A DNA stretch of 50,424 bases, taken from assembly GCA_963205385.1 (NCBI GenBank), contig CAUJKE010000181.1:1-50424 (forward strand), in the 5' to 3' direction. Positions 35,349 through 48,149 of the stretch are shown piece after piece. This stretch comes from Planctomycetota bacterium (GTDB taxonomy: Bacteria > Planctomycetota > Planctomycetia > Pirellulales > Pirellulaceae). How positions within the stretch are numbered: the stretch's first letter is position 1; each line of letters opens with the position of its first letter. A program made the translations under genes and the position numbers. Under the pieces are notes generated by a model. The model saw only the letters and a program-made list of their open reading frames with translations. It ran no database searches and was not told where the DNA came from.

Positions 35349-36983
35349 TTAATAAGCCACCATCTCCATGGCGGAACCGCCACGACGAAGTCGCAGGTGA
35401 CGCAGCCAGTGCTCGTTGTCCGTCTCGGGAAAGTCCGTTCGCAGGTGAACGCCCCGCGATTCCTCGCGCGCCAGGGCCGCCGCAACCATCAGTCGGGCGA
35501 CCGTCAGCATGTTCTGCAATTCCCAGCCCGCCTGGGCATCGAACTGCCGCACGAGCACGTACTTGCGCCACGTGTCGATCTGCCCGGCCGCCTCGGTGAG
35601 CAGCGTCCCGTCGCGGCGAACACCGGCGGCGCGCCACATCAGCGCGGTAAGCGAGTTGCGAATGTCCAGAATGTCGAGAGGTTCACCACCGTTTTGCCGG
35701 GGGGGCGAGTCCAGCGGCAGCGCTTGAAAGTCATCTTGCATGCGCGCCGCCGCTTCGCTAGCACCACTACCGGCATGTGCTCCATATACGAGCCCTTCCA
35801 GCAAACTGTTCGATGCCAACCGGTTAGCGCCGTGCAAGCCGCTCGAAGTCACCTCGCCCGCCGCCCACAAACCAGGCAGCGAGGTGCGGCCCATCTGATC
35901 GACCGTCACCCCCCCAACCATGTAGTGAGCGCCGGGTCGAACCGGGATGCGATCGCGGCGGATATCGAGCCCGAATTTGAGGCAAGTCTCCGCAATGTGA
36001 GGGAAGCGATTTAGGATATGCTGCGGATCCAGATGGCTCATATCCAGATAAACGCAGGCGTGCCGGGTCTTTTCCATCTGGCTCTCGATCGACTGCGAGA
36101 CGACATCCCGCGGGGCAAGTTCGCCGCGCGCGTCGTACTCGAGCATGAAGCGGCGACCGTTCTTGTCCACCAGATGCGCCCCTTCGCCCCGAATCGCTTC
36201 GGTGATGAGACTGCGACTGCCGCCAGCGATGTAGAGCACCGTGGGGTGGAACTGCATGAACTCGACGTCGCGGAGTTCGACGCCGGCGCGATAGGCCAGC
36301 GCGTGGCCATCGGCGGTGGCGACGGCCGGGTTCGTCGATTCGCGATAGATTTGCCCCGCGCCGCCGGTGCAGAGGATGGTCTGCTTGGCCCAGACCATGA
36401 TCTTGCGATACTCCCGCGTATGAACGAGCGCGCCGCGGCACTGTTCACCGGCGGTGAGCAGGTCGAGCGTGAAAGCGTTCTCCCAGATGGTGATGTTTTG
36501 TTGCCGCCGGGTCCAGGTAATGACCGCCCGCATCACCTCTTGCCCGGTGGCGTCTCCGAGCGCATGGACGATGCGATGATGACTATGTCCCCCCTCGCGT
36601 CCCAGCATGAGCCCGCCGCTAGTCAGTTCATCGAAATGCGTCCCCCACTCAATCAGCTCCCCGATTCGCTCTGGGGCCTCGCGGACCACCATCTCGACCA
36701 CGTCCGAGTCGCATAGCCCCGCCCCGGCGATGAGCGTATCGTCAATGTGATCCTCAAACCGATCCTCCGGATCAATCACCCCCGCGATCCCCCCTTGCGC
36801 ATAAGCGCTGTTGGACTGCTGGAGCGCGTCCTTGGTGACGACCAGCACCGAGAGTTCCGGCGGCACCGCCAGCGCCGCCCGCAGCCCAGCCAGGCCACCG
36901 CCGATAATCAGGATGTCGGTGAAGAAGTGGGCCGTTTGCTTGGGATGAAACGGCACGAGGTAACGCGGGGTGGAACTCGACAT
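35349..36983 (-). CDS. nadB: L-aspartate oxidase
   Basis: The 544-residue flavoenzyme oxidises L-aspartate to iminoaspartate for NAD synthesis with quinolinate synthase. It has FAD-binding DILIIGGGLAGLRAAL, SAYAQGGIAG, GGHSHHRIVHALGDATG, the active-site RFMLEYDARGELAPRDVV region and ANRLASNSLLEGLVYG near the C-terminal third. The ATG at 36983 is preferred to the upstream start at 37046, which adds an unlikely arginine/proline-rich extension. Succinate dehydrogenase-like family members share the fold, but the NadB-specific GGHSHHR and ASNSLLEGL blocks separate it. No nadA or nadC is in the window. Confidence 0.93.
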   Translation of the reverse strand: MSSSTPRYLVPFHPKQTAHFFTDILIIGGGLAGLRAALAVPPELSVLVVTKDALQQSNSAYAQGGIAGVIDPEDRFEDHIDDTLIAGAGLCDSDVVEMVVREAPERIGELIEWGTHFDELTSGGLMLGREGGHSHHRIVHALGDATGQEVMRAVITWTRRQQNITIWENAFTLDLLTAGEQCRGALVHTREYRKIMVWAKQTILCTGGAGQIYRESTNPAVATADGHALAYRAGVELRDVEFMQFHPTVLYIAGGSRSLITEAIRGEGAHLVDKNGRRFMLEYDARGELAPRDVVSQSIESQMEKTRHACVYLDMSHLDPQHILNRFPHIAETCLKFGLDIRRDRIPVRPGAHYMVGGVTVDQMGRTSLPGLWAAGEVTSSGLHGANRLASNSLLEGLVYGAHAGSGASEAAARMQDDFQALPLDSPPRQNGGEPLDILDIRNSLTALMWRAAGVRRDGTLLTEAAGQIDTWRKYVLVRQFDAQAGWELQNMLTVARLMVAAALAREESRGVHLRTDFPETDNEHWLRHLRLRRGGSAMEMVAY

Positions 36984-37136
36984 GGAAGGCGGGTCTCGCG
37001 AGGAACGCGGCACAGGACGCGGAAGGCAGGCCCTGTATTGTCGCATCCCAGGCGAAGGCGTGGTAGCCCGCGCCCCCTAACCCGAAGCATCAGCGCGCGA
37101 ACGCGGCCGCCTCCGTCATGTGTGCCGCGATCCGCA

Positions 37137-41027: not shown

Positions 41028-41945
41028 CTAACCCCAAGGGCCGCCAGGCGGCCACTGCTTTGGGAAATCCGCGGCGCGAACGGCGAACTCCGTCGGCGGC
41101 CATAAGAACATTCGCAGGCGCTGGACAACTTCGCGAAATCCCGCTTCGTTCACGTCGAGTTTGCCCTTACGAACAAACGCCTGCCACTGGGCGAGTTTCT
41201 GACGATCCTCCGAAAATTCGGTGGTCAACGCCAGCGGAGGCTGGACCGGCAAAGCGGTTTCGCGACACTCAAATGTCGCCTGGATCGCCGTGCATAAGAC
41301 GGAACCAGAGAACGCAAACTCTCTGGCGAGCGTCCAAATGTCGTAGAAGTCCTTCATGCGACTATTGGCGATGCCAAGCTTTGCCATCGCATGATATTTC
41401 TCCGCCACCACGGTCTCCCGCGGATACGCTCCCACTACCGGCGCGGCAAAGTTAAGAAGCGTCGGGTATGTGATCTCTAGCACGCCTGGTGTAATGATGT
41501 CGCCAAAGCCAAGATCGATCTGAATCGGAATGCGCGCGGACGCCAGATGGGCCAGCAACTTCAAACGCAAGCCCGGATGCTTCTCCGCTTCCTTAATCGT
41601 CTCAGCACTGACCGTCTCCGCCGCGAAGCTCAATCCATCATCTTCGACCTCTTGATCGCAAATTTCCCGAAACATGTTCGCAAAGTCCGGTGGCGACGCC
41701 GCCCCATAGCCCAACAGATCGAGGTCGCGCGTGGGGCGGTGGAGTTGGTCGCTCCAGATACGGAACAGCATCGCGCCCTTGAGCACAAACTGCTGGCGGT
41801 ACTGGGAATTCGACAGCCGAAAGAGCAATCGCTCCAAGGCATAGCGGACGAGCACCAGGTCAAAGGCTTCGCGCTGTTGCCTGGCAATGTTCATCAGCCG
41901 TTGCCGAACGGATGCCGCGACGTTCCGAGGAAGATCCTTGGTCAT
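41028..41945 (-). CDS. AbiEii/AbiGii-type nucleotidyltransferase toxin
   Basis: The 305-residue protein has the nucleotidyltransferase motifs of AbiEii toxins: KGAMLFRIW, RPTRDLDLLGYG (acidic pair), DLGFGDIITPG, and the late EKYHAMAKLG with RMKDFYDIW. AbiEii toxins of type IV or related systems arrest growth and can abort phage infection; some members modify tRNA acceptor ends. The ATG overlaps the antitoxin stop by four bases (ATGA), the typical arrangement. All four motifs are present, so it looks active. Confidence 0.9.
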   Translation of the reverse strand: MTKDLPRNVAASVRQRLMNIARQQREAFDLVLVRYALERLLFRLSNSQYRQQFVLKGAMLFRIWSDQLHRPTRDLDLLGYGAASPPDFANMFREICDQEVEDDGLSFAAETVSAETIKEAEKHPGLRLKLLAHLASARIPIQIDLGFGDIITPGVLEITYPTLLNFAAPVVGAYPRETVVAEKYHAMAKLGIANSRMKDFYDIWTLAREFAFSGSVLCTAIQATFECRETALPVQPPLALTTEFSEDRQKLAQWQAFVRKGKLDVNEAGFREVVQRLRMFLWPPTEFAVRAADFPKQWPPGGPWG

Positions 41946-42550
41946 GTCATCGCTTCCAGATAGGGACGCATGACCTCAGACATGCGGCAGACCTTCGCGG
42001 CCGTCCAGAGTTCGTCGACGCTCGCCTGGCGCTCCGCGAGACAATCGCGGAGCGCCTCGATCGCGACATCGAGTCCAATTTTACTGCGAAACTTGAAACA
42101 ATCGGCAACCGTCTTGGCCGGCGAGTAAATGCGAACAGGAACCCCTTCGACTTCGTGTTCGTCAATTCCAAACGTCAGCGCCTGCCCGGAGAAGTGCACA
42201 ATCCGCAGTGGCGGATAGTCACTCTGGGGTTTCCGAGCTTTGCCGCCGATTGCAAGCCAAACCTCAAACGGCGCCTCCGTGGTCAGGCCATAAAAGCGCA
42301 GTGCGCTGAGCAAACACACAATTCCACTCGGCACGCGCTGACAAGCCTCCACGAGCGTGCGGTGTTCGCTCGGTGCGAAGCTTGCAAGTGTGTACAGCCC
42401 GCGACCAAGTCGTTCCAGCACCCCCTCCGCATAGAGCTTGTTGAGGTAAACACCCGAGACGCCGATCTTTTTCAGATCGCGCGGACGCAGCACGCCTGTC
42501 TCCCGGAGCAGTTGCAGAACCCGTTTTCGCTTGGCAGATGGGAGAACCAT
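41942..42550 (-). CDS. AbiEi-type antitoxin and transcriptional repressor
   Basis: The 202-residue protein begins with a winged-helix domain (VLQLLRETGVLRPRDLKKIGVSGVYLNKL, read in parts), followed by GRGLYTLA and a C-terminal domain with LLSALRFYGLTTEAPFE. AbiEi antitoxins bind inverted repeats in their own promoter and repress the operon. A perfect 8-base inverted repeat lies 13-40 bases upstream of its start, fitting that role. The stop codon overlaps the toxin start. Confidence 0.87.
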   Translation of the reverse strand: MVLPSAKRKRVLQLLRETGVLRPRDLKKIGVSGVYLNKLYAEGVLERLGRGLYTLASFAPSEHRTLVEACQRVPSGIVCLLSALRFYGLTTEAPFEVWLAIGGKARKPQSDYPPLRIVHFSGQALTFGIDEHEVEGVPVRIYSPAKTVADCFKFRSKIGLDVAIEALRDCLAERQASVDELWTAAKVCRMSEVMRPYLEAMT

Positions 42551-42750: not shown

Positions 42751-43071
42751 TTATTCCGCCGCCTTCCCCAGCGCCCGCAGCAGTTCAAACGAGAAGATTC
42801 CCGTGTCGTGGCCGTCGCTGAAGCTGATGGAATAGGCGTAGTTCCCCATCGGCTGCATGCCGGTGATCGCCAGCGGCCGGGCTTCGCTTAAGCCAATCAC
42901 GGGGAGCGCGGTGGACGGCGGAGGGGGCTTGGTTTGCTTTTCGCGACAGGTCGCGCACGGGCAAGCGTCGCGGAGTTCGCCGTTGGTGTAGACGCGCGTC
43001 TGGCCATCGCTCCAGGTAATGGCCAGTTGGCCAGGCTCGCGGCGTTCGAGTTTCGTGGGGTAAGTTTCCAT
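42751..43071 (-). CDS. DUF971 protein
   Basis: The 106-residue protein is a stand-alone DUF971 (gamma-butyrobetaine hydroxylase N-terminal-like) domain with ITWSDGQTRVYTNGELRDAC, CPCATC (cysteines that can bind zinc) and a closing ISFSDGHDTGIFSFELLRAL. Stand-alone members occur beside Fe-S or molybdenum-cofactor genes in other bacteria. The start codon shares one base with the stop of the PLP-enzyme gene, so the two are translationally coupled. Its role is unknown; a zinc-binding accessory is likely. Confidence 0.85.
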   Translation of the reverse strand: METYPTKLERREPGQLAITWSDGQTRVYTNGELRDACPCATCREKQTKPPPPSTALPVIGLSEARPLAITGMQPMGNYAYSISFSDGHDTGIFSFELLRALGKAAE

Positions 43072-44324
43072 TAGCAAATCTGTTCCAGCACGCTTAACAG
43101 CCGTTCTATTTCTTCAGACGTGTTGTAATGCACCAGCCCTAAGCGAACCATCCCCTGTGGCTCCTGCCCCAACGTCTCGCTCAGTTCCAAGGCGTAGTAG
43201 TTCCCGTGCCAGGCGTAAATGCCGTGTTGATCGAGATGCCGGCAAATTTCCTCCGGCGAGCGCGAACTGTGGGTGACCGAAAACGTCGGCACGCGCGCGG
43301 TCAAGTCGGCGATGGATGTCGGTCCCCAAACTTGAATCGGCTCCAGCCGCGCGAGCCCTTGCAGCATCTGCGACGACAAGCTCCGTTCGTACGCCGTGAT
43401 CGCAGCAAACGCGGCCACCAGCGCGCGCCGGCGATCATGCAGATCCTTGCCGGTCACAGCGCGACCAAGATCGGCCAAATAATCAATCGCCGCGAGCGTG
43501 CCGGCGATCCCTTCGTGGCTTTGCGTCCCGGTCATCCACTTGCCCGGCAGGTCGTTGGGCGCCGGACGCACTTTGTAGGCCGGCAGCGTTTCCAGCAATT
43601 CGCGCCGCCCCCATAACAGGCCGATATGCGGACCAAAGAATTTATACGCCGAGCACGCCAAGAAGTCGCAGCCCCAGGCTTGCACGTCGATCAAGCCATG
43701 CGGGGCGTAATGCACGGCGTCGAGAAACGAGAGCGCGCCGGCCTCGCGCGCCCAGGTGCAAATCTCCTGCACCGGATTAATCCCGCCGGTCGCGTTCGAC
43801 GCGCAACCCACCGCCACCAAGCGCGTGTTCGACGTAATCTTGCGCCGCGCGTCCTCCAAGTCGAGCGTGCACGTCCTACGATCCAGTTCGACGAACTTCA
43901 CCGTCGCGCCAGCGTCGCGGGCCGCGAGCACCCAAGGGGAAACGTTGGCATCGTGATCGAGCCGCGTGACGACGATTTCATCTCCCGCCTTCCAGGTCTG
44001 CGCGAGCGCCCGCGAGAGCGCGAACGTCAGCGTGGTCATGTTCGGCCCAAACGCGACGCAGTCGGCGTCGCGGGCGCCGAGCAAGTCCGCCGCCGCTTGA
44101 TGCGCGCGGTGCAGCAGTTCATCGCTCTCACGACTCGTGGCGAACACGCCGCCATGATTGGCATTGTGATGCGCCAGATAGTCGCCGATCGCCTCGATCA
44201 CGCGGAGCGGCGTTTGCGTCCCCGCCGGACCATCCAGATAAATCACCGGCGTCCCGCCCAAGGCGCGCGCGAGCGCCGGAAACTGCCGACGCAACGCGAG
44301 CACGTGGGCCGCTAGTTCAGTCAT
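43071..44324 (-). CDS. Cysteine-desulfurase-like aminotransferase-V enzyme without the catalytic Cys
   Basis: The 417-residue PLP enzyme is from the SufS/CsdA-like superfamily (TIGR01976 type). PLP lysine K228 (CSAYKFFG), D202 and H205 (LDAVHYAPHG) and the N-terminal IYLDGPAGTQTP are present. Where SufS has its catalytic cysteine loop (GHHCA), this protein reads HGNYYALE, with Tyr instead. It may therefore act on another substrate, not desulfurate cysteine. The ATG at 44324 is spaced six bases from AAAGGG; the stop of the upstream gene overlaps it by one base. Confidence 0.85.
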   Translation of the reverse strand: MTELAAHVLALRRQFPALARALGGTPVIYLDGPAGTQTPLRVIEAIGDYLAHHNANHGGVFATSRESDELLHRAHQAAADLLGARDADCVAFGPNMTTLTFALSRALAQTWKAGDEIVVTRLDHDANVSPWVLAARDAGATVKFVELDRRTCTLDLEDARRKITSNTRLVAVGCASNATGGINPVQEICTWAREAGALSFLDAVHYAPHGLIDVQAWGCDFLACSAYKFFGPHIGLLWGRRELLETLPAYKVRPAPNDLPGKWMTGTQSHEGIAGTLAAIDYLADLGRAVTGKDLHDRRRALVAAFAAITAYERSLSSQMLQGLARLEPIQVWGPTSIADLTARVPTFSVTHSSRSPEEICRHLDQHGIYAWHGNYYALELSETLGQEPQGMVRLGLVHYNTSEEIERLLSVLEQIC

Positions 44325-45634
44325 CAACATCCCTTTCGCAATGACTTGTCGCCGGCGCCACGGCGGCGCTCATCGACAAAGTGTTGTCCCTTCCCTTCGA
44401 ACCGCGGCAGCGACCCTAGCTCGACACTCTGCACGTCCACTTTCAACCCCAGTCGCAATTGCAGCTCCAGCGCGATCCGCGCCGGCTGCTGCAAGCGGTC
44501 TTCGACTTCCACCATGATCGCATCCATGTTCCCCACGGAGCGCGCGATCATCCGCCACTGGACCACTTCCGGGAAGCTCATCAGTATTTGTTCGACCGAC
44601 GAGGGAAAAATGTTCACGCCCCGAATGACGACCATGTCGTCCGCGCGCCCCAGCACGCCCCCTTCGAGCAGCACAAAGCGGTTGTCATCTTCCGTGTTCC
44701 AACGCGGGCGGACGAGGTCGCCGGTGCGGTAGCGAATGACCGGGCTCCCTCCACGGCCGAGCGTCGTGAGCACGAGTTCCGCAAGTTCTCCTTCCTTGGC
44801 AGGCTGGCCGGAATCGAGGGCCAAAAACTCCGGGAGAAAACTCGTCTCGATGACGCGCAGCCCGCGCTGCTGACGATCGCCGTAACCCCACGGTCCAATC
44901 TCGCTCGCGCCTGCGTGGTCGATGACCCGCGCGTTCCAAGCTGCTTCGATGCGCGCCCGCACCGCCGGCACGCTCCCGCCGGGCTCGCCGGCGACGACGA
45001 TCCGTTCGACGTGAAAATGTTCCGGCAACAGGCCGTGCTGCCGCGCGACTTCCGCCATGTGCAGCGCGTAGGTTGGCGTGGTGAAGAGGATCGTGGCGCG
45101 ACTCGTGCGAATCAAATCAAGCCGCGCGATCGTGTTCATCCCACCGCTGGGAACCACCAACGCGCCGCGCTCGATGCACGCATCGTGAGCGCTCCAAAAG
45201 CCGATGAACGGCCCGAACGAAAAGCACATCAACACGCGATCGCGGGGCGTCATGTCGGCGGAGTCGAGTATGAACTGCCACGTCTCCATCCACCACCGCC
45301 AATCCTCCGCCGTATCGAGCACCACCGTTGGCCGCCCGCGCGTCCCCGACGTGCGGTGATAACGCACATACCGCTCCGCAGGCCATGTAAGATTCGCCGA
45401 AAACTCTTCCCCCTGCCGCGCGGCGAGTTCGTCCTTCGTCGTCAGCGGCAGCGACGCTAGCTCATCCAGCGAAGCCAGCGGCAGCCGGCAGCCGCGGAGC
45501 TTTTCCGCGTACATGCGATTATGCGGCAGGATCGTCCGAAGCAGTTCATTGAGCCGCCTGAGTTGGAATTCTGCGAGCGCCTCGGGCGCGAGAGATTCCA
45601 GGCGACGACGTTCTTGAGGGAGAGCAAGCGACAT
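44324..45634 (-). CDS. Phenylacetate-CoA ligase-like (PaaK family) adenylating enzyme
   Basis: The 436-residue protein has the PaaK-type P-loop RTSGTRGRPTVV (about 94-105), VVAGEPGGS, IDHAGASEIGPWGYG, YRTGDLVRP and GRADDMVVIRGVNIFPSSVE. The C-terminal lid keeps the lysine in GKGQH, the usual adenylation/thioesterification residue. Such enzymes activate an aromatic or other carboxylate as AMP, then CoA or another acceptor. No other phenylacetate-degradation gene is near. It begins the operon with the PLP enzyme and DUF971 genes. Confidence 0.87.
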   Translation of the reverse strand: MSLALPQERRRLESLAPEALAEFQLRRLNELLRTILPHNRMYAEKLRGCRLPLASLDELASLPLTTKDELAARQGEEFSANLTWPAERYVRYHRTSGTRGRPTVVLDTAEDWRWWMETWQFILDSADMTPRDRVLMCFSFGPFIGFWSAHDACIERGALVVPSGGMNTIARLDLIRTSRATILFTTPTYALHMAEVARQHGLLPEHFHVERIVVAGEPGGSVPAVRARIEAAWNARVIDHAGASEIGPWGYGDRQQRGLRVIETSFLPEFLALDSGQPAKEGELAELVLTTLGRGGSPVIRYRTGDLVRPRWNTEDDNRFVLLEGGVLGRADDMVVIRGVNIFPSSVEQILMSFPEVVQWRMIARSVGNMDAIMVEVEDRLQQPARIALELQLRLGLKVDVQSVELGSLPRFEGKGQHFVDERRRGAGDKSLRKGC

Positions 45635-45703: not shown

Positions 45704-47188
45704 GTGTTACACTTGGAAAACTTAAATCCCCCCATCCACGCTCCCCTGCCCTGCGACAACACCTTGGACACAACGCCTGAGAAACCTCGCGCCGCCAGTG
45801 GCGCTCAACCGCCTGAGGGCGCAGAACCGCGGCGCGGCTCGCTGCTGGTAATCTTCCTGACCGTGTTCGTCGATCTTCTCGGCTTTGGCATGGTGCTGCC
45901 GCTGCTCCCGGTCTACGCCAAACACTTCGCGGCGGAGCATGGGTTTTCAAAATTCACCACCGGCATGACGATCGGGCTCTTGTTGTCGAGCTTCTCGATC
46001 ATGCAGTTTTTGTTCGTGCCGATCTGGGGACGACTTTCCGATCGCTACGGCCGGCGACCGATCTTGATCATCGGGCTGGTCGGTTCGACAATGTTCTACA
46101 CGCTGTTCGGCGTTGCGACGGCGCTGGGGAGCCTGGCGGGACTCTTCATCGCGCGAATTGGGGCCGGCATTGCGGGGGCCACCATCGCCACGGCGCAGGC
46201 GTACATCGCCGATACCACCACCAGGGACAAGCGCAACAAGGGGATGGCGCTGATCGGCGCGGCGTTCGCGCTGGGCTTCACGCTCGGCCCCACGCTCGGC
46301 GCGGTCGCCCTGTTGGCCGGCGGCAACGTCACGCTTAGCCCGTGGCCAGGCTATGCGGCCGGGATGTTTTCCGGCTTCGCGCTGCTAATGGCGATCTTCT
46401 GGCTGCCCGAATCGCTGCGCCCCGGCTCGCGCGCCGCCAGGCAACCGCTGTTCGATCGCACCGCGCTGGCGTCCGCGCTCGCGACCCCCTCGGTCGCCAT
46501 GCTCCTGCTCGCCTCGTTCATCGCCGTCTTTTCATTCGCCAATTTCGAATCGACCCTCTCGCTGCAAGTCGATCAACTCGTGGCCGAAGTGCAAGGCACC
46601 GCCGTGACGGTGCAGGGCGTCGTCGCAGACGCTCAGCCTGCCGCGCACGTGCCCGTCATCATCCGCGCGCTTATGGACTGGGCGCAGTCGCGCGGCTACG
46701 AAGACGCAGACGAGGTGAAGCTGATCGTCATCTTGGCTGTGTTCTCGTACCTGGGACTCGTGCTCACGTTCGCGCAAGGCTTTCTCGTCCGTCTCCTGGC
46801 CGGACGCGTGAAGGAAAGGACGATGGCCCTGAGCGGCGGCTCCCTGGCAGTCGTGGGCTTTCTGGTCTTGGTGCGGGCTGCGGAAACGGCGAAATTCAAC
46901 TTGCTCTTAGGGGCGCTAGCCGTCGAAGTCACCGGCTTTGCACTGGTTAACCCGTCGCTCCAATCGCTGATCTCGCGCCGCAGCAATCCCGCGTATCAAG
47001 GGGGTGTCCTCGGGATTGCGCAGAGCAGCTCCTCGCTCGCCCGCATCTTAGGGCCGCTCTTTGGCAACGCGCTGTTCGCGTTCTCCGTCGCGTGGCCCTA
47101 CTGGGCCGCCGCCGGACTGATGGTTCTCGCGCTCAGCGTCATTGCCGTCGCCGCCCGCCGCGGACATGACTATGAATCCGCGGAATAG
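45704..47188 (+). CDS. Major facilitator superfamily transporter
   Basis: The 494-residue protein has about twelve membrane helices of the TetA/DHA1-like MFS class, with motif A near GRLSDRYGRRPILI and further motif-like stretches such as AYIADTTTRDKRNKG. A hydrophilic N-terminus of about 45 residues precedes TM1 (LLVIFLTVFVDLLGFGMVLP). Helices 6 and 7-8 are separated by an extra segment of about 55 residues (QVDQLVAEVQG to ADEVKL) with few homologues I know. The GTG at 45704 is the longest start; a TTG at 45713 is possible. The substrate is unknown; drug or metabolite efflux is usual. Confidence 0.85.
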   Translation: MLHLENLNPPIHAPLPCDNTLDTTPEKPRAASGAQPPEGAEPRRGSLLVIFLTVFVDLLGFGMVLPLLPVYAKHFAAEHGFSKFTTGMTIGLLLSSFSIMQFLFVPIWGRLSDRYGRRPILIIGLVGSTMFYTLFGVATALGSLAGLFIARIGAGIAGATIATAQAYIADTTTRDKRNKGMALIGAAFALGFTLGPTLGAVALLAGGNVTLSPWPGYAAGMFSGFALLMAIFWLPESLRPGSRAARQPLFDRTALASALATPSVAMLLLASFIAVFSFANFESTLSLQVDQLVAEVQGTAVTVQGVVADAQPAAHVPVIIRALMDWAQSRGYEDADEVKLIVILAVFSYLGLVLTFAQGFLVRLLAGRVKERTMALSGGSLAVVGFLVLVRAAETAKFNLLLGALAVEVTGFALVNPSLQSLISRRSNPAYQGGVLGIAQSSSSLARILGPLFGNALFAFSVAWPYWAAAGLMVLALSVIAVAARRGHDYESAE

Positions 47189-47205: not shown

Positions 47206-47231
47206 GACGTCTACGCTAGACGTCTACGCTA
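47206..47231. repeat. Exact 13-base tandem repeat
   Basis: GACGTCTACGCTA is present twice in a row (47206-47218 and 47219-47231) and runs into the stop codon of the minus-strand gene. Both copies lie between the convergent MFS and TIM-barrel genes. It could be a recent slippage duplication. Confidence 0.85.
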
Positions 47232-48149
47232 CACGTCGCACACCTGCACCCCATGTCGCAGCGCTGCTAGTTTATCGTCCCAAGTGGGAATGAACTCGTG
47301 GGCGACGTAGCCTTGATAATCCAACGCCAACAGCGCGCGCATGATGGGCGGGTAGTACATCTCTTGCGTCTCATCCAATTCCCCGCGCCCTGGATTGCCG
47401 GCCGTGTGAATGTGGCCAATGATGTCCTTGTACTGTCGCAGCCGACGAATCACGTCGCCGTTCATGATCTGCACATGGTAGCAATCGAACAACAGCTTCA
47501 TCCGCGGTGAATCGACGCGCTGGATCAGCTCCACGCAAAAATCCACGTCGTCGCCGAAGTAGCCAGGATGCCCCTTCATCGGGTGCGAATCGTCGCGGGA
47601 GTTCAGATGCTCCATGCACAGATTCACCCCCTTCTCTTCCGCATAGCCGATGACTTCCTTCCAACACGCGACGCAGTTATCGGCCATCTGCTTGTCGCTC
47701 AAATCCTGCTCCCGCATCCCGGTGAACGTGATCACGCCTGGCGCGCCATACTCCACCGCGAGATCGATCCCCTCGCGAAGTTTCTTCACGCAGTTCTCAT
47801 GATGCTTAGGACTCGTCGGGCCATCTTTGAAACCGTGGCTCCCAATCAGCGAAGGCTTCATCCCCAGTTCGCGCAATCGCGGGTAATGCTCCGCCGAGAT
47901 CCCCTCCATCGCGGTCATTCCCATCGCATGGCAGGCGTCGATGAGCTGCGGCGTTGGCATCGGGGCGAAACACCAGCCCATCACCGAATGATGAATGCGG
48001 CCGTTTTGAATCTTGTAATCCGGGCCAGGAACTTCCGCCTGGCTGGACGGCTTCTTCTCGCCGCGGGCGGACGAAACATAAGTCGCGGTGGCAACGGAAG
48101 CAGCGGCGCCGGCCGTAAGAAAACAGCGGCGTGTGAAGTGCGATTTCAT
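47229..48149 (-). CDS. Tat-exported hydroxypyruvate isomerase-like TIM-barrel protein
   Basis: The 306-residue protein has a signal (FTRRCFLTAGAAASVATA) with twin arginines. It has the xylose isomerase-like TIM barrel with GVITFTGMREQD, NLCMEHLNSRDD, LLFDCYHVQIMNG and IGHIHTAGNPGRGELD, which carry the Glu, Asp, His and Glu metal ligands of the Hyi family. Hyi interconverts hydroxypyruvate and tartronate semialdehyde, but exported planctomycete members likely act on other sugars. An AGGAG ribosome-binding site lies upstream. The next gene is divergent (copper ATPase). Confidence 0.86.
   Translation of the reverse strand: MKSHFTRRCFLTAGAAASVATATYVSSARGEKKPSSQAEVPGPDYKIQNGRIHHSVMGWCFAPMPTPQLIDACHAMGMTAMEGISAEHYPRLRELGMKPSLIGSHGFKDGPTSPKHHENCVKKLREGIDLAVEYGAPGVITFTGMREQDLSDKQMADNCVACWKEVIGYAEEKGVNLCMEHLNSRDDSHPMKGHPGYFGDDVDFCVELIQRVDSPRMKLLFDCYHVQIMNGDVIRRLRQYKDIIGHIHTAGNPGRGELDETQEMYYPPIMRALLALDYQGYVAHEFIPTWDDKLAALRHGVQVCDV

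Follow-up and report, generated by a model that had tools for sequence, protein, structure and literature searches.

What might three genes do together when they are packed so tightly that each adjoining pair shares a single base, and when they encode a PaaK-like adenylating ligase, a SufS-fold PLP enzyme devoid of the desulfurase cysteine, and a DUF971 protein? We addressed this question for an operon in a planctomycete genome (6.03 Mb, 417 contigs), in a window, that is, the whole stretch of DNA that was analysed, of 50,424 nucleotides. All three genes are on the minus strand. The first (44324-45634) encodes an AMP-forming (acyl-CoA) ligase of 436 aa, recognized by PF14535 (54.9 bits) and PF00501 (30.1 bits). 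The second, a fold-type I PLP enzyme of 417-419 aa (PF00266), ends at 43071 and begins either at the ATG at 44324, which overlaps the ligase gene by one base, or at an in-frame ATG 6 nt upstream, at 44330. The third ORF (42751..43077) encodes a DUF971 (GBBH-like_N) protein of about 106 aa, whose ATG at 43071 has one base in common with the PLP stop codon. The junctions, TGATG and TAATG in the contexts TGTTGATGACT and TGCTAATGGAA, bear out the one-base stop/start overlaps described in the initial annotation. Such overlaps suggest translational coupling, and the accompanying claim of expression in a fixed ratio goes too far. A scan for promoters and terminators found nothing above chance.

The operon is flanked on its 5´ side by a divergent gene for an MFS transporter of the DHA1/Tet-like type (45704..47188, plus strand, PF07690), 69 bp from the ligase ORF. 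Directly 3´ of the operon is a type IV toxin-antitoxin pair, AbiEi antitoxin and AbiEii toxin (41028-42550, minus strand; PF13338 and PF08843); in early comparisons, only loci of the same genome had AbiEii next to the operon. The window also holds a gene for a xylose-isomerase-like TIM barrel protein (47229-48149, minus strand; PF01261), for which the nearest models, those for hydroxypyruvate isomerase, stay under their cut-offs, as well as an ORF that by eye resembles L-aspartate oxidase (35349-37046, minus strand). Homologues of the latter recur near the ligase and an ABC/DUF4340 cluster in five other loci.

The arrangement is not confined to one strain. Ligase orthologues were found in 59 of 60 related genomes, DUF971 orthologues in all 60, and PLP orthologues, defined by at least about 50% identity and in some cases split over contigs, in 37. 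The 23 relatives missing the PLP gene all keep the ligase and DUF971. We gathered 107 non-redundant ligase loci and counted linkage in the 95 that have at least 2.5 kb of downstream sequence. DUF971 lies downstream of the ligase on the same strand in 72 of these, immediately next to it in 38. The PLP gene is downstream in 36 and directly 3´ of the ligase (within 120 bp) in 27, and the full trio, PLP gene and DUF971 both, is found in 27 of the 95, which answers the earlier call to search for the trio beyond the strain. In a set of loci that is partly redundant, junctions with -4 or -1 nt overlaps number 13 of 43 (ligase-PLP), 15 of 42 (ligase-DUF971) and 6 of 28 (PLP-DUF971). The MFS homologue is present in 32/95 loci, and in at least 20 it adjoins the ligase divergently. 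A hydantoinase/5-oxoprolinase-like gene lies close by in 15/95, and some operons contain an inserted D-glutamate-cyclase-like gene (PF07286). Other recurrent neighbours (ABC/DUF4340/PQQ, rpoA/rplQ, CPSase and LptF genes) were set aside as ancestral synteny.

One reading of these counts is that the ligase and DUF971 form a housekeeping acyl or aryl ligase unit of Planctomycetia, and that the PLP and MFS genes, gained or retained through accidents of synteny, share no pathway with it. The near-universal presence of the first two genes next to the patchier distribution of the PLP gene favours this view, as does the observation that other classes of the phylum have more distant ligases without these neighbours. 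However, the PLP gene is directly 3´ of the ligase in more than a quarter of the loci, often overlapping it. PLP-DUF971 pairs are also found apart from the ligase (loci L074/L109 and L079/L097), and the PLP gene precedes the ligase in loci L122/L164. Because the pair can stand apart from the ligase and the order changes, simple inertia of gene order is unlikely, and selection is the better explanation. We therefore consider the chance-of-synteny account unlikely. The recurrence of the adjoining genes is not due to chance, and the trio is a conserved module whose stable core is the ligase with DUF971 and whose optional third member is the PLP gene. The initial annotation had proposed a small uncharacterised module; conservation upholds this, and our literature search found no description of the trio or of a function for TIGR01976/VC1184. 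Elsewhere in the phylum, other planctomycete classes have more distant PaaK-like ligases arranged as tandem pairs (G127 C1:3819665-3822852, G094 C50, G142 C90, G075 C236 and G093 C486). Where planctomycete PLP genes stand alone, EamA transporter genes adjoin them in three genomes, and the other neighbours are uninformative.

What kind of ligase is at the head of the operon? The P-loop (TSGTxGxP), an AMP-binding_C_2 domain, a C-terminal catalytic Lys and the fold all mark it as a PaaK-like ANL enzyme. The best structural match is 4r1l (BT_0428; TM 0.87), and TM spans 0.86-0.87 for BT_0428 and PaaK2. The P-loop and lid lysine had been noted as kept, and they are: across 27 homologues, the motif and the Lys (K415, counting from the first Met) vary little or not at all. 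The fold, the adenylation motifs and the PF14535 C-terminal domain are shared with the PaaK phenylacetate-CoA ligase, BT_0428 and 2-hydroxyisobutyryl-CoA ligase. However, identity to solved members does not exceed about 31%, the TIGR02155 PaaK score is 191.4 against a cut-off of 646.3, and the protein has a subfamily signature of its own, FGPFIGFW / GASEVGPWG. The nearest plasmid-borne homologue, from Azoarcus KH32C (43.5%), lies within a phenol/phenylphosphate carboxylase/UbiD cluster, and a Halorussus homologue (37%) is near genes for chorismate pyruvate-lyase and a prenyltransferase. These contexts hint at aryl or hydroxy-acid substrates. Replacement of MenE, the o-succinylbenzoate-CoA ligase, was ruled out: MenB is over its cut-off in one of 30 relatives and not in the genome itself, and the crotonase adjoining some ligase loci is not MenB. 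A separate crotonase-family gene on the same contig (22521-23255, minus strand) reaches 125 bits with the MenB model, under its cut-off.

The PLP enzyme belongs to TIGR01976, named "cysteine desulfurase-like" (466.4 bits against a cut-off of 352.35, covering profile positions 4-401 of 401), and scores 232.2 with the SufS model TIGR01979, for which the cut-off is 475.1. Its AlphaFold model (pLDDT 95) has the SufS fold (TM 0.88), and it shares with the SufS/CsdA desulfurases the PLP site and the carboxylate Arg. The PLP lysine, K228 from the ATG at 44324 or K230 from 44330, is invariant, in agreement with the initial annotation, and so are the ring-stacking His126 and the substrate-carboxylate Arg396. 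The catalytic Cys of SufS, in contrast, is without a counterpart, and Tyr379 aligns at its position, as had been observed. Tyr occupies this position in nine of ten aligned TIGR01976 proteins from Planctomycetota, Cyanobacteriota, Pseudomonadota and Bacillota, and His in one, such that the substitution is a trait of the family (am_tr_V_VC1184), shared along with the PLP lysine, His and Arg, and not a local oddity. The initial annotation was right not to expect an ordinary desulfurase, given the family assignment, the missed SufS cut-off and the absent Cys.

An enzyme of this kind could instead be a cysteine-sulfinate desulfinase or selenocysteine lyase, releasing alanine and SO2 or selenium, for which no Cys nucleophile is needed; together with DUF971, it would then form a sulfur or Fe–S side module. 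Cys-less CsdB retains desulfinase and selenocysteine lyase activity, and the closeness of the fold to SufS agrees with such a role. Against this, the genome already has a genuine SufS (locus L002) that keeps the Cys and reaches 555 bits with TIGR01979, and homologues of the PLP enzyme elsewhere adjoin genes for amino-acid transporters, C4-hydroxylases and aldehyde or alcohol dehydrogenases. We regard a desulfinase or selenocysteine lyase as quite improbable here.

Another relative bears on the chemistry. Searched against solved (PDB) chains, the family profile has its best match in FGM3 (374 bits), with SufS narrowly lower (366); in the structure search SufS ranked first, and Fgm3 9x4u was not among the matches listed. 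Fgm3, a fungal PLP lyase, is reported to break 4-hydroxyarginine between Cβ and Cγ, yielding L-alanine and an aldehyde (PMC10967133), a cleavage described as retro-aldol (PMC10367076). The Fgm3-type set of Lys, His and Arg without a Cys nucleophile is present in the PLP enzyme (K230, H126, R396 and Tyr379), a correspondence drawn through the profile alignment to the top-scoring solved relative (PDB 9x4u). Depending on the numbering offset of the PDB chain, the putative general base of Fgm3, Tyr225, may correspond either to Y229, where Tyr is kept, or to F232, where the planctomycete protein has Phe. The two enzymes differ at the Cys position, which is Phe in Fgm3 and Tyr here, and Fgm3 is partnered by a P450 and an amidohydrolase.

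The gene contexts of the closest PLP homologues on annotated plasmids point in the same direction. A PF10014 dioxygenase gene is 2 bp upstream of the homologue in Gloeothece (50% identity) and Salinivibrio (46%), and members of PF10014 C4-hydroxylate free Leu, Ile and Thr (PMC3684760). These PF10014 and TIGR01976 genes form two-gene operons (L236:6279-8215 and L240:5336-7221, respectively) that look like hydroxylate-then-cleave units. In three rhizobia an aldehyde dehydrogenase gene is beside the PLP homologue, and rhizobial contexts also include an M20 hydrolase; in Vescimonas, the neighbours are an alcohol dehydrogenase and an amino-acid permease. On a plasmid of Rhizobium sp. CIAT894 (L304, 422-7636), the TIGR01976 gene is found with genes for agmatinase, creatininase, an amidohydrolase and two SDRs, a cluster reminiscent of a bacterial counterpart to the fungal route from 4-hydroxyarginine to guanidinoacetate. 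Several other homologues have amino-acid ABC transporter genes nearby, a dihydropyrimidinase was also seen, and some homologues have no telling neighbour. These contexts fit an enzyme that would take an amino acid, imported or hydroxylated at C4, and convert it to alanine and an aldehyde. They also set the planctomycete operon apart, since among the TIGR01976 members inspected elsewhere none has a PaaK-like ligase or DUF971 neighbour. An IDO-type C4-hydroxylase was ruled out as the missing planctomycete partner: PF10014, the hydroxylase family searched for, is absent from the genome itself and from 59 of 60 relatives, and present in one. This counts against cleavage of a γ-hydroxy amino acid in the planctomycetes, as does the finding that none of their operons was seen to contain an aldehyde dehydrogenase gene.

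Could the enzyme act by hydrolysis, as kynureninase does? A γ-oxo amino acid would be converted to L-alanine and a carboxylic acid, which the ligase would turn directly into a CoA thioester, making a self-contained two-step route. This proposal has the appeal of joining both enzymes without an extra oxidation step, and it suits the aromatic-acid contexts of the nearest plasmid-borne ligase relatives. The PLP enzyme also has a DAVH motif that we take to resemble kynureninase. KynU, like UstD, has been described with a nucleophilic aminoacrylate (PMC13397446), the same chemistry that cleavage of a γ-hydroxy substrate would use. However, no kynureninase model is among the best 25 of the 33 NCBIfam matches of the enzyme, and many genomes keep the ligase without any PLP gene. 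A kynureninase-like route strikes us as a poor prospect, and from Fgm3 and the contexts in other bacteria we infer that the PLP enzyme would be a C–C lyase.

The third gene, DUF971, is linked most strongly to the ligase. Its product scores 80.7 bits with PF06155, against a gathering score of 22.8, and carries the CxCxxC and His motif; C39, C41, C44 and H90 are nearly invariant. The CPCATC that the initial annotation singled out is indeed present, but it is generic for DUF971. In L154 (10213-10533), the DUF971 protein of a complete trio has SPDALT in place of CPCATC, the gene being kept without its Cys. The CxCxxC and DGHDTG motifs are shared with DUF971/GBBH_N proteins (PF06155; 3luu; the HCF101 C-terminus). 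Here, however, the protein stands alone in a ligase operon and is not fused to a dioxygenase or an Fe–S carrier: the gamma-butyrobetaine hydroxylase model TIGR02409 gave 20.0 against a cut-off of 414.75, over 33 residues only, and a full GBBH with a TauD domain is not encoded. In HCF101, DUF971 makes up the C-terminal domain, HCF101-like proteins are found in PVC bacteria, and a metal site has been suggested for the domain (PMC7980591), with which the conserved Cys and His residues are compatible. The tie to HCF101 would also suit the sulfur or Fe–S module mentioned above, but no sulfur or Fe–S genes were recognized among the recurrent neighbours. Judged by title and abstract, none of the DUF971 papers found appears to concern this operon.

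Taken together, these observations lead us to a tentative model, which we give somewhat less than an even chance: the operon would serve a small amino-acid/carboxylate pathway that combines a PLP C–C lyase, a PaaK-type ligase, MFS transport and a DUF971 accessory protein. In this model, the PLP enzyme would bind an L-α-amino acid with a γ-hydroxy (or γ-oxo) group, break the Cβ–Cγ bond via a nucleophilic alanine-enamine (aminoacrylate) intermediate, and release L-alanine together with an aldehyde, ketone or acid. The ligase would activate a related carboxylate, either as such or once the aldehyde has been oxidized, to an acyl-AMP and probably an acyl-CoA; the divergent MFS transporter may move the substrate or product, and DUF971 would be a small accessory protein that probably binds metal and belongs chiefly with the ligase. 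The identity of the substrate, the order of the steps and the part played by DUF971 in the pathway are conjecture. The initial annotation had carboxylate activation precede the PLP step, which is probably the wrong order: since homologous enzymes release alanine and an aldehyde or acid, the ligase more plausibly acts on the PLP product, and is more likely to follow than to precede. The ligase must also have a PLP-independent role, given that it persists with DUF971 in many genomes without the PLP gene. Overall, the observations behind the earlier reading were confirmed and its interpretation is partly supported. Neither outcome named in advance as fatal to the module idea came about: the trio extends beyond the strain, and the SufS position has no aligned Cys.

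The implications extend beyond this operon. Proteins of TIGR01976 occur widely, and their customary name, "cysteine desulfurase-like", steers annotators to sulfur metabolism, while the evidence favours C–C lyase chemistry that releases alanine. The near-universal pair of ligase and DUF971 probably carries out an undescribed core function in one planctomycete order. The operon also links DUF971, whose function has been elusive and which is also part of the HCF101 Fe–S carrier, to a testable enzyme partner. In its boldest form, our reading would be of a planctomycete pathway not described before: a Cys-less lyase with the SufS fold would free L-alanine from a γ-oxo or γ-hydroxy amino acid, and the remaining carbon skeleton would be fed to CoA metabolism by a PaaK-like ligase dedicated to the task and physically partnered by DUF971. 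We consider this form doubtful, though conceivable; if true, it would provide the first bacterial functions for TIGR01976 and for stand-alone DUF971 proteins.
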